DNA of 45,496 nucleotides from Thermomonas sp. (lineage in GTDB: Bacteria; Pseudomonadota; Gammaproteobacteria; Xanthomonadales; Xanthomonadaceae): positions 1 to 45,496 of the forward strand of contig NZ_JAMQHN010000093.1 of assembly GCF_025993755.1 (NCBI RefSeq). The letters run 5' to 3'. Below the pieces are notes generated by a model. That model saw only the letters and a program-made list of their open reading frames with translations, ran no database searches and had not been told where the DNA came from. Below, one piece after another: positions 7,968 to 41,566 of this stretch. The position numbers were made by a program, and so were the translations under genes. Each line of letters opens with the position of its first letter. The first letter of the stretch is position 1.

Positions 7968-8084
7968 AACGCGCACCTGCGGTACCGGGTGCGGGCATCC
8001 CCGAACCCGGCGGCGGCCTTCGGCCTTGACCGGTCTGTGTGCGTGGTTCGCGACGGGTTCCGGCAGGGGGCAGGACAAGCATTT

Positions 8085-8156
8085 TTGACGCGGATTGGCG
8101 CGGATAAAATCTGATTGAAGGTTTGATCCGCGTTCATCCGCGATTATCCGCGTCAA
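8085..8156. repeat. palindromic element with 10-nt phased CGCGGAT/ATCCGCG units
   Basis: An 11-bp perfect inverted repeat (TTGACGCGGAT at 8085-8095, ATCCGCGTCAA at 8146-8156) encloses further copies. CGCGGAT occurs at 8089-8095 and 8099-8105. Its complement ATCCGCG occurs at 8126-8132, 8136-8142 and 8146-8152. Neighbouring copies on each side are exactly 10 nt apart, i.e. about one helical turn. It resembles dispersed intergenic palindromic repeats, but no other copy is in this window. No transposase is nearby. Confidence 0.6.
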
Positions 8157-8224
8157 CAAACAGCACTGTCCGTGCCCAGAGATCGTCGACTCCCGATGCA
8201 GTGACGCATTGCGATGGACGTTGG

Positions 8225-38966: not shown

Positions 38967-40436
38967 ATGTGCGGGATCGTCGGTATCGTCGGCCAGAATG
39001 CAGTCGCCGGCCTGTTGTACGACGCGCTGACTGCGCTCCAGCACCGCGGCCAGGACGCCGCCGGCATCGGCACGGTACACGGCACCCACCTGCGCGTGCA
39101 CAAGGGCAACGGGCTGGTGCGCGACGTGTTCGACGCCGGCGCGATGGCGCTGCTGCAGGGCAAGGTCGGGATCGCCCATTGCCGTTATCCGACCGCAGGC
39201 AGCGAGGGCAGCGACGAGGCACAGCCGTTCTACGTCAATTCACCCTACGGCATCGCGCTGGCCCACAACGGCAATCTGGTCAATACCGAGGCGCTGCGGC
39301 GCGAGGTGTTCGAGCAGGATCGCCGCAACGTCAACACCGGCTCGGATTCGGAAGTGTTGCTCAATGTGTTCGCGCACGAGCTCGACCGCCATCCGGCGCT
39401 GACCCCGGACGCCGTTTTCACCGCGCTGGAAGGTGTGAACCGGCGCGTGCGCGGCGGCTATGCGGTGGTCTGCACGGTGCTGGGGCTGGGCGTGGTCGCC
39501 TTCCGCGATCCCAACGGCATCCGCCCGCTGGTGCTGGGCAAGCGAAGCGTCGAAGGCGGCGACGAGTACATGGTCGCCTCCGAGTCGGCGGCGCTGGACA
39601 TCCTCGGTTTCGAGCGGCTGCGCGACGTCGAGCCGGGCGAGGGGATCGTGATCACCGCGCGCGGCGAATTGCACGCGCGCCAGTGCGCGGCGCCGGGCAG
39701 GCACACGCCCTGCATCTTCGAATACGTCTATTTCGCGCGCCCGGATTCGATGATCGAGAACATCTCGGTCCACAAGGCGCGGATGCGCATGGGCGTCACC
39801 CTGGGCGAGAAGATCCTGCGCCTGCGCCCGGATCACGACATCGACGTGGTGATCCCGATTCCCGACACCAGCCGCGATTCCGCGCTGGAGATCGCCAACG
39901 TGCTGGGCGTGAAGTACCGCGAGGGCTTCATCAAGAACCGCTACGTCGGACGCACCTTCATCATGCCTGGCCAAAGCGAGCGCGCGAAGTCGGTCCGCCG
40001 CAAGCTCAATCCGATCCCGCTGGAATTCCGCAACCGCGTGGTGCTGCTGGTGGACGATTCGATCGTGCGCGGCACCACGTCGAAGCAGATCGTGCAGATG
40101 GCGCGCGATGCGGGGGCAAAGAAAGTCTACCTTGCTTCGGCGGCGCCGCCGGTGCGTCATCCCAACGTCTACGGCATCGACATGCCGTCCAGCGAGGAGC
40201 TCGTGGCGCACGGGCGCAGCGAGCAGGAAATCGAGTCGCTGCTGGGCTGCGACTGGCTGGTCTATCAGGATCTGGCGGATCTGGAAGCCGCGGTGGCCGG
40301 CCCGAAATTCCCCGGCCGCACGTTCGACAGTTCCTGTTTCAACGGCGAGTACGTCACGGGGATCGAGGCCGGCTATTTCGAGCGCCTCAGGCAGCTGCGT
40401 TCGGACGAGGCGAAGAAGAAGCGGCGGGCTGGCTGA
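38967..40436 (+). CDS. purF: Amidophosphoribosyltransferase
   Basis: This 489-aa enzyme starts de novo purine synthesis from PRPP and glutamine. The N-terminal glutaminase domain begins with the catalytic Cys2 (MCGIVGIVG), with HRGQDAAGI and [13 protein letters not shown]. The phosphoribosyltransferase domain has [17 protein letters not shown] and the PRPP loop [17 protein letters not shown]. Length is normal. In E. coli and many relatives cvpA precedes purF; here the SPOR gene ends only 29 nt upstream, so cvpA is missing. A large twin-hairpin structure begins 21 nt after the stop. Confidence 0.97.
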
Positions 40437-40456
40437 CTGACGTGGCCCTGCGGGTG

Positions 40457-40614
40457 GGCGATGGCGGGCATGCCCCGCAAGTCGCTCCCCGGTACTCGCT
40501 TGGTTGCGGGGCATGCCCGCCATCGCCTTCGGGAATGTCTGGTGGGGAGTGCTCAGGTGTGTTTCAACCAAGCGAGTATCGGGGAGCGACTTGAAACACA
40601 CCTGAGCACTCCCC
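40457..40614. repeat. twin hairpins with different stems and mutually complementary loops
   Basis: Hairpin 1 has a perfect 24-bp inverted repeat (40457-40480 with 40504-40527) and a 23-nt loop at 40481-40503. A 16-nt spacer follows. Hairpin 2 has another perfect 24-bp inverted repeat (40544-40567 with 40591-40614) and a 23-nt loop at 40568-40590. The two stems are unrelated in sequence. The loops are reverse complements at 22 of 23 positions; the exception, G40492 opposite T40579, becomes a G-U pair in plus-strand RNA. Both loops are bounded by CAA and TTG, giving a shared 29-nt core in opposite orientations. No T-run follows either hairpin, so neither is a standard terminator. Confidence 0.9.
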
Positions 40615-40636
40615 CTGCGTCAGGCAACGTTCCCAC

Positions 40637-41440
40637 ATGACCGGTCTGTTCGAAGCCGCCCGCACCTGCCTGGATGCCGCCACGGTGGACGACAAGCCTG
40701 CGTTGACGCTGGCGATGGCCGCCGCCTTCGCGCGCGGCGAATTTACGGTTCTCGACGGCGCGCCGCCGCCGGAGCCGATCCGCATGCCGGGCCGGCCGCC
40801 GCGTCCGCGGCTGGTGCACCCGCGCGACCTGCCGCGCCGCGGCTTCGGCACCGACGAAGGCCGCGCCGCTTTCATCCACGCGGTCGCGCACATCGAATTC
40901 AACGCGATGGACCTGGCCTGGGATGCGGTTTATCGCTTCCGCGGCATGCCTGCGGCGTTTTACGCCGATTGGGTGTCGGTGGCAAACGACGAGGCGCGGC
41001 ATTTCAACCTCCTGCGCGGGCGCCTACGCGAACTGAGACATGACTATGGCGATTTCGATGCCCACAACGGCCTGTGGGAGATGGCGGAAAAGACCGCGCA
41101 CGACGGCCTGGCGCGCATGGCGCTGGTGCCGCGCGTGCTGGAGGCGCGCGGGCTGGACGTCACGCCGGGGATGATCGTGAAGCTGCGCGGGTTGGGCGAT
41201 GACGCCACCGCCGACATTCTCGAAGTGATCCTGCGCGAGGAAATCGCCCACGTCGCCGCGGGATCGCGCTGGTACCGCTGGCACTGCGAGCGCGCCGGCG
41301 TCGAGCCGCGCGTGCGCTTCCGCGAACTGCTGCGCGAATACGCCAGCGGCGTGCTGCACAAGCCGTTCAATACCGAGGCGCGGCTGGAAGCCGGGTTCGA
41401 TCTGGAAGAACTGGAAAGCTTGCTGGCGGCTGCGGAGTGA
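40637..41440 (+). CDS. DUF455 family ferritin-like protein
   Basis: This 267-aa protein is recognisable as DUF455. The ferritin-like motifs are HIEFNAMDLAWDAVYRF (ExxxxD-type helix with His), SVANDEARHFNLLR (ExxH) and EVILREEIAHVAAGSRW (ExxxH), consistent with a helical bundle that could hold a di-metal centre. A proline-rich stretch (about 42-65) links a short N-terminal helical region to the bundle. The function of DUF455 is not established. It is probably monocistronic: purF lies upstream beyond the twin hairpin, and a second palindromic structure lies between it and the convergent lpxH. The ATG at 40637 has no strong ribosome-binding site (CAACG only), which is unusual beside its neighbours. 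Confidence 0.85.
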   Translation: MTGLFEAARTCLDAATVDDKPALTLAMAAAFARGEFTVLDGAPPPEPIRMPGRPPRPRLVHPRDLPRRGFGTDEGRAAFIHAVAHIEFNAMDLAWDAVYRFRGMPAAFYADWVSVANDEARHFNLLRGRLRELRHDYGDFDAHNGLWEMAEKTAHDGLARMALVPRVLEARGLDVTPGMIVKLRGLGDDATADILEVILREEIAHVAAGSRWYRWHCERAGVEPRVRFRELLREYASGVLHKPFNTEARLEAGFDLEELESLLAAAE

Positions 41441-41466: not shown

Positions 41467-41566
41467 GCACCCATCAGGCCAAGTCCTTCCGCGAATGTCC
41501 CCCGGCAGCGGCCTGTGACCGCTGCCTCCTCCTTGATTTCGCTCCAGAACTTGGCCTGATGGGTGC
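41467..41566. repeat. nested palindromic structure between convergent genes
   Basis: An 18-bp perfect inverted repeat (GCACCCATCAGGCCAAGT at 41467-41484, complement at 41549-41566) encloses 64 nt that contain a second perfect 8-bp stem (GGCAGCGG 41504-41511, CCGCTGCC 41519-41526; 7-nt loop). It lies between the stops of DUF455 and lpxH. It might end transcription from both sides, but it has no T-run. Confidence 0.75.

Follow-up and report, generated by a model that had tools for sequence, protein, structure and literature searches.

The twin hairpins between purF and a DUF455 gene in Thermomonas sp. look like two copies of an apparently undescribed family of dispersed DNA hairpin repeats

We analyzed a stretch of 45,496 nucleotides of Thermomonas sp. 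DNA (the window) and found that its twin hairpins at positions 40457 to 40614 look like two copies of an apparently undescribed family of dispersed DNA hairpin repeats, copies of which are located between the housekeeping genes of some Gammaproteobacteria. The conserved loop of the family is 25 nt long and reads 5'-ACMRAGCGARTATCGNGGAGCGAMT-3' on one strand, which is called strand F here. In the titles and abstract openings of the literature retrieved, no description of such a hairpin family was recognized, and a literature search with the loop string gave one match, a paper that was unrelated as far as its retrieved part goes.

Structure of the twin hairpins

The hairpin pair lies between purF on the left (38967 to 40436, + strand; NCBIfam TIGR01134, 526.9 bits, above the cut-off) and the gene of a DUF455 protein on the right (40637 to 41440, + strand; Pfam PF04305, E 4.2e-98; no NCBIfam match), and the two genes run in the same direction. 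The DUF455 protein is presumably ferritin-like and MiaE-like. The covariance model matched hairpin 1 at 40456 to 40528 on the - strand (88.4 bits, E 9.7e-16), with arms at 40457-40480 and 40504-40527 and the conserved 25-nt loop ACCAAGCGAGTACCGGGGAGCGACT on the - strand at 40480-40504. Hairpin 2 was matched at 40543 to 40615 on the + strand (84.7 bits, E 6.5e-15), with arms at 40544-40567 and 40591-40614 and the conserved loop ACCAAGCGAGTATCGGGGAGCGACT on the + strand at 40567-40591; for both scores, the hairpin's own sequence was included in the model alignment. The pair at 40457-40614 is inverted, with the conserved-loop strands opposite, in the order that is commonest among neighbouring copies. 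Both hairpins had 24-nt arms that were 100% complementary and 23-nt loops, and they were spaced 16 nt apart, exactly the geometry given by an earlier, sequence-only reading of the window. The same reading had described the single loop difference as a G-U wobble confined to + strand RNA, and this was borne out, the opposite strand having an A-C there. It had also taken a 29-nt core as the unit; the two cores (40478-40506 and 40565-40593) were indeed 97% (28/29) reverse-complementary, including the CAA/TTG edges, but the conserved unit proved to be 25 nt, the outer CA/TG of the 29-mer belonging to the changeable stem. The twin-hairpin pair is far from chance: the 29-nt core was observed twice in the window and gave 0 matches in 100 window shuffles, and the region 40430-40640 had a folding energy of -128.1 kcal/mol versus -88.1 +/- 4.6 in 200 shuffles (z -8.8, 0/200 as good).

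We viewed 23 of 24 loci of the purF gap across Thermomonas, two of which end at contig ends, and found two, one or zero hairpins; long-loop forms, a decayed remnant and other repeats were further states in the same 23 loci. One gap (L182, genome G163) held an inverted pair with the same rare loop variant CCACGTGATTC in both loops and full complementarity kept, which suggests an exchange between neighbours. The second hairpin of another (L187, G158) had one arm like that of the window and the other like that of G051, with its best pairing near an inverted loop, and is possibly a recombinant or template-switch intermediate. Other repeat-like sequences, of a CCCTCATCCG..CTTCTCCCG type and a ATTCCCGCGAAGGCGGGAATCCAG type, replaced the hairpins in the purF-DUF455 gaps L176, L184 and L194 (G160, G159 and G152), as if this gap gathered repeats.

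Distribution of the family

A search of the window's own genome with the core, followed by inspection of the flanks as the sequence-only reading had proposed, found six copies (up to 3 mismatches) and none for the reversed control pattern. Each copy stood on its own stem; the window pair and L006 were perfect over 22 pairs, and the stems of L003, L004 and L005 had mismatches. A covariance-model search of this genome gave eight matches, namely the six known copies, a weaker new one (C128), and C162, which had previously been visible by its half-core. The 25-nt loop core was present in 20 of 25 Thermomonas genomes, and the covariance model added a twenty-first (G154). The copies in the own genome and in relatives exclude a core that is confined to the purF gap and has decayed stems in relatives.

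The distribution across taxa was patchy. In the window's family (Lysobacteraceae), 13 of 149 sampled genomes bore the core, from 7 of 54 genera with the own genome counted, and a class-wide sample of 369 genomes, searched with up to 2 mismatches, showed it in the own genome only. In the sample of the Pseudohaliea rubra family, 10 of 120 genomes were bearers, P. rubra included, and the three richest had 62 (P. rubra), 105 and 48 matches. Bearers among the matches listed were Luteimonas, Lysobacter, Thermomonas, a Halioglobus MAG, Pseudohaliea and Burkholderiaceae MAGs. A phage, plasmid or viral origin was rejected, as the viral, phage and plasmid searches gave nothing convincing: an exact search of viral contigs with one degenerate core pattern, outside which the CCAC loop variants fall, gave 0 matches, and phage and plasmid records matched the 201-bp region only over short lengths at best, with E about 0.6.

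Sites and arrangement of the copies

Copies with identical flanking keys were removed before counting, and the 98 Thermomonas copies were grouped into 22 sites by single-linkage clustering of their flanks, with two different hairpins possible per site. Family models identified the flanking pairs hslV-hslU, lpxA-lpxB, infC-rpmI, chorismate-binding/aminotransferase IV, adenylate kinase/Mur ligase and RadC/ArgS, and hemE and aspS on one side of two further sites; the remaining flanking genes in Thermomonas were named by eye. No other core was present within 300 nt for 79 of the 98 copies, and 19 had one. Among 66 neighbouring pairs, with the neighbours in tandem arrays counted too, 58 were inverted, 45 in the order of the window and 13 in the opposite inverted order, and 8 were direct; the compared 23-nt loop strings were unlike in 37 of the 66.

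Outside Thermomonas, the genome of Luteimonas salinisoli (62 match pieces in total) contained a recurrent composite whose two hairpins differ and lie about 165 nt from each other; whole copies of it were 80-100% identical, and some were tandem. The composite had a sharp right end at the foot of the second stem, and on the left the similarity extended past the first hairpin. A search for empty Luteimonas sites, using the flanking genes in G123, G144, G070 and G029, resolved no clean empty site or target duplication. In other genera, L013, L031 and Lysobacter concretionis (L085) have copies in the purF-DUF455 gap, while L008/L077, L025/L156 and L153 have them in the xerC-hslV gap; the genes of both gaps were assigned by motif. 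The Luteimonas composites and these gaps shared across genera indicate a family that spread in some lineages and stayed in place in others. We also looked for a recurrent neighbour gene in 133 loci with 517 predicted ORFs, a few of the loci being from Thermomonas; 18 families were reported and none was a transposase. The recurrent neighbours outside Thermomonas, judged by eye, were housekeeping and other genes (e.g., hslU, hslV, purF, DUF455 and fusA). The tyrosine recombinase XerC recurred at 9 loci, presumably as the housekeeping xerC that belongs to the xerC-hslV gap.

The loop is conserved and the stem is free but paired

Same-site comparisons between species (n = 235) gave a p of 0.061 for the loop and 0.369 for the stem, the latter being raised because some comparisons set two different hairpins of a pair against each other; the fourfold sites of purF in ten genomes had a mean p of 0.26 (0.07 to 0.40). 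When 5170 stem positions were compared on strand F, 3025 were the same, 1631 were double-changed and paired, 282 were changed on one side and paired, and 232 were broken. In an ungapped alignment of 72 Thermomonas hairpins, 97.4% of the cells were paired versus 53.6% after shuffling, with 714 double-change cells versus 211.5, and the covariation score was 1.044, about five times that of the shuffles (0.204; at most 0.157 when slid). Nine hairpins were left out of this alignment (the second hairpin of L187, L308, L294, L301, L041, L049, L268, L042 and L051), some of them more poorly paired, so the 97.4% is slightly favourable; over 24 positions of all 81 Thermomonas hairpins, 1872 of 1944 cells (96.3%) were paired. 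Because the alignment rows are related by ancestry, the raw counts exceed the number of independent events. The stem length was fairly fixed: in 80 hairpins, with G.T allowed, pairing was at least 93% up to position 23, 76-81% at positions 24-26 and 53% or less beyond. The covariation and the same-site comparisons back the earlier proposal that conserved loops on freely changing but paired stems imply selection or active correction of pairing.

Within 210 loops, positions 6-9 (GCGA) and 18-23 (GAGCGA) were almost invariant, and positions 3, 10 and 16 were the most variable. Positions 4 and 24 co-varied (A/C 195, G/A 14, other 1), as did positions 10 and 16 (G/G 146, A/T 55, other 9); lineage alone may be the cause of both. 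RNAalifold added the loop pairs G6-C21 and C7-G20, the former with one double change in 72 rows, and given these pairs, G8.A19 and A9.G18 would be tandem G.A pairs. Long loops occurred in nine copies (43-45 nt in five, 87-98 nt in the other four), and the extra part of these loops contained inner hairpins. At L402 and L404 (G632), a small hairpin was inserted in the middle of the loop (TCCCGG..CCGGACCAACG), adjoining normal copies.

Strand F tolerates G.T and is selected independently of gene direction

The stem of a selected single strand should tolerate G.T and not A.C. On strand F, the strand with the loop ACCAAGCGAG..., the mismatches in all genera comprised 184 G.T, 33 A.C and 133 others in 216 of 249 hairpins; this count required 14 or more Watson-Crick pairs out of 20, which omitted 33 of the 249, a clustered count omitted 39, and near-decayed hairpins are under-represented in both. 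Counted once per stem cluster and position, the G.T:A.C numbers were 143:29, 126:26, 112:24 and 47:17 from tight to loose cuts, and the clusters leaning to G.T versus A.C were 80:11, 59:7, 41:5 and 13:0. The A.C-leaning clusters (11, 7, 5 and 0 by cut) are real exceptions to this bias. The routes to G.T on F were C>T in 28 cases and A>G in 16, with 13 ambiguous, and the mirror routes to A.C were 6 and 3, with 1 ambiguous; strand-specific deamination was rejected as the sole cause of the bias, as both G.T routes exceeded their mirrors. No replication-strand bias was clear by eye when each single contig was assumed to begin at the origin.

Between genes of the same direction, F was antisense in 38 and sense in 28 of 66 Thermomonas copies; 12 further copies lay between convergent genes and 4 between divergent genes, and 16 had no assignment. 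The G.T:A.C count in Thermomonas was 28:5 with F antisense to both flanking genes and 16:1 with F sense, and the bias was weaker at the other (convergent, divergent and unassigned) sites, at 24:8. In 8 of the 10 site clusters between same-direction genes, both loop orientations occurred at the same site. The same bias for F sense and antisense indicates that it is intrinsic to the element and not to a message running through it. The excess of G.T over A.C on F thus points to selection of the folded single strand, and purF read-through RNA is not the reason.

Proposed explanation and its main rival

We put at about even the chance that the family is a REP/BIME-like repeat in which a putative factor reads the loop as folded ssDNA and template switching helps to keep the stems perfect. 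Strand F, folded on itself as a single-stranded nucleic acid, would be the functional form, and the putative trans-acting factor would require of the stem only that it form a straight helix of roughly 24 bp. DNA is the likelier identity of the selected single strand, because the bias is equal at copies where both flanking genes run antisense to F. Folded ssDNA would be the substrate of the process by which the family spreads or once spread, and replicative template switching would copy one arm from the other, such that stems stay perfect and the loop is occasionally inverted. Parts of PMC8604942 describe arm homogenization and spacer inversion by template switching at inverted repeats, and parts of PMC8794818 also document its effects on inverted repeats; both loop orientations at one site are as expected from the process in the former. 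The copies themselves are dispersed and have a conserved loop, covarying stems, an intrinsic strand bias, mostly inverted neighbours and sites shared between species, and there are the composites of L. salinisoli and the three genomes sampled from the Pseudohaliea family that have 48 to 105 matches each. Several points stand against the ssDNA-repeat reading. The recurrent-neighbour and PF01797 tests found no recognizer, the empty-site search resolved no fresh insertion, the loops are conserved at shared sites of diverged species, as those of a dead mobile repeat would not be, and the tandem G.A pairs that the loop may contain would be a typical RNA motif. The weaker strand bias at convergent, divergent and unassigned sites, the A.C-leaning clusters and the shared ancestry behind the raw counts also weigh against it.

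An RNA function of strand F is the main rival, and we regard it as rather unlikely but serious. In this case F would act as a folded transcript whose structured loop, which may contain tandem sheared G.A pairs, is recognized by a partner RNA or an RNA-binding protein. The tolerance of G.T on one strand is consistent with this, as are the nearly invariant purine-rich loop strand, the in-loop double change from G-C to A-U retained in 1 of 72 rows, the sites within likely operons (e.g., hslV-hslU, lpxA-lpxB and infC-rpmI) and the loop variants bearing extra inner hairpins. However, F was antisense in 38 of the 66 copies between same-direction genes, where the bias was equally clear (28:5), and the variable stems and flanks make a common promoter inside the element unlikely. 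Rfam also gave nothing at the gathering score for the window site and 12 further loci: the window site had 11 matches, all below it (ten microRNA families and one mcr7 elsewhere in the stretch), and the 12 loci had 2, both below it.

It is improbable that the hairpins are functionless old palindromes whose perfection comes solely from arm homogenization by template switching. That process and the accompanying spacer inversion are known, at least from the parts of PMC8604942 and PMC8794818 cited above, and double changes prevailed even among similar copies within one genome (56 comparisons: 162 double changes versus 52 changes to or from G.T and 21 others). Such palindromes, however, leave unexplained the conservation of the loop relative to the stem (p 0.061 versus 0.369) and across genera, as well as the one-strand excess of G.T.

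Comparison with known systems

In the guanidine-II (mini-ykkC) riboswitch, as in the present pair, two hairpins carry similar loops on stems that vary, but the riboswitch has tiny loops and is located in 5' leaders, and its family was absent among the Rfam matches listed. CRESS-virus and rolling-circle origins carry a nonanucleotide in a hairpin loop; they share a conserved loop on a stem of variable sequence with the conserved-loop family, which in contrast consists of chromosomal multicopy repeats. The attC sites of integrons conserve boxes at the stem ends, whereas the conserved-loop family keeps the loop and not the arms. The likeness to attC, going by partial sources, is that the hairpins act as one folded strand and that their sequence may vary.

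The family resembles REP, BIME and REPIN elements in being short intergenic palindromes that are dispersed, mostly in inverted pairs and with some tandem arrays of pairs; as in BIMEs and REPINs, inverted pairs and dispersed copies were found, although most Thermomonas copies are single. It differs from them in keeping the loop and freeing the stem. The retrieved part of PMC3733652 gives REP stems of 5-13 bp and loops of 2-20, compared with stems of about 24-26 bp and a loop of 25 nt in the conserved-loop family. In the 10 nt that adjoin the stem foot on the outside, the GTAG/CGTC tag was not in excess among the 81 Thermomonas hairpins (observed/shuffled flanks: GTAG 2/3.1, CTAC 1/4.6, CGTC 5/5.1 and GACG 8/7.2). 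A classic REP/REPIN mobilized by a RAYT (TnpA-REP) transposase is therefore very improbable on these tests, in spite of the intergenic, dispersed sites, the inverted pairs and tandem pair arrays, and the recognition of one single strand by TnpA-REP that PMC8266576 describes in its retrieved part. A PF01797 (RAYT) protein was present in 16 of 27 bearer genomes examined, but it was missing in 11, including P. rubra, and present in 5 of 6 non-bearers, and the core (up to 6 mismatches) occurred in 0 of 34 PF01797 loci. The earlier opinion that REPs explain the hairpins poorly holds in the strict sense, by tag, stem length and RAYT, but the dispersal, intergenic sites and inverted pairs are REP/BIME-like. 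A palindrome starting with GTAG, GTAGAGCCGAGCTTGCTCGGCTGC, adjoins one copy in L. salinisoli (L323 flank), where classic REPs seem to coexist with the conserved-loop family.

Kissing hairpins in purF read-through RNA, which the sequence-only reading had offered as a possible reason for the pair, have next to no probability in that role. The two window loops complement each other, with a single G-U when they are read as + strand RNA, and the G163 pair in the same gap carries an identical rare variant in both loops; nevertheless, the 79 solitary copies of 98, the unlike loop strings in 37 of 66 pairs and a strand bias that ignores gene direction largely refute kissing loops as the family's reason, and such loops might form locally. 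Transcription terminators or processing hairpins, which would suit the location between genes, are hardly credible, as had been held before: there is no T run 3' of 40527 or 40614, so neither hairpin is an ordinary terminator, both orientations occur at most sites, and the 25-nt loop is conserved. A terminator scan found none, but with loops limited to 3-8 nt it says little about hairpins with 23-nt loops.

A second element of similar design and its implications

We found a second, different element of like design at 41467-41566, which has a free outer stem and the conserved inner strands CCTTCCGCGAATGTCCCCC and TCCTCCTTGATTTCGCTGCAG flanking an inner hairpin. Its core of 63-64 nt recurs in L048, L178 and L191 of the Thermomonas purF neighbourhood on unrelated outer stems, in which 18-19 of 22 positions were paired; scoring tried 21 offsets per stem and kept the best, which was one and the same in all four. 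The other strand of this element, AGCGAAATCAAGGAGG, resembles AGCGAATATCGTGGAG of the twin-hairpin family by eye. At 8082-8159, ATCCGCG-type units also form an inverted repeat in the window (34 nt, 76% complementary), which may belong to a further family of short repeats. Tentatively, and with somewhat less confidence than in the ssDNA-repeat reading, we propose a class of chromosomal elements that would be recognized by a conserved, structured loop on one strand, with the stem serving as a handle of fixed length and free sequence. The class would comprise at least two loop families (the twin-hairpin family and that of 41467-41566), whose folded single strand would be read by a putative non-RAYT factor, and it would be kept at shared operon sites across genera.

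The conserved-loop family reverses the usual pattern of bacterial hairpin repeats, in which the stem is conserved and the loop less so. Its strand bias reveals the selected strand from the sequence alone, irrespective of the direction of the flanking genes, and knowing this strand makes the search for a recognizer directly testable. The many double changes are natural replicates for the question of how perfect stems persist, whether by selection, template switching or both.
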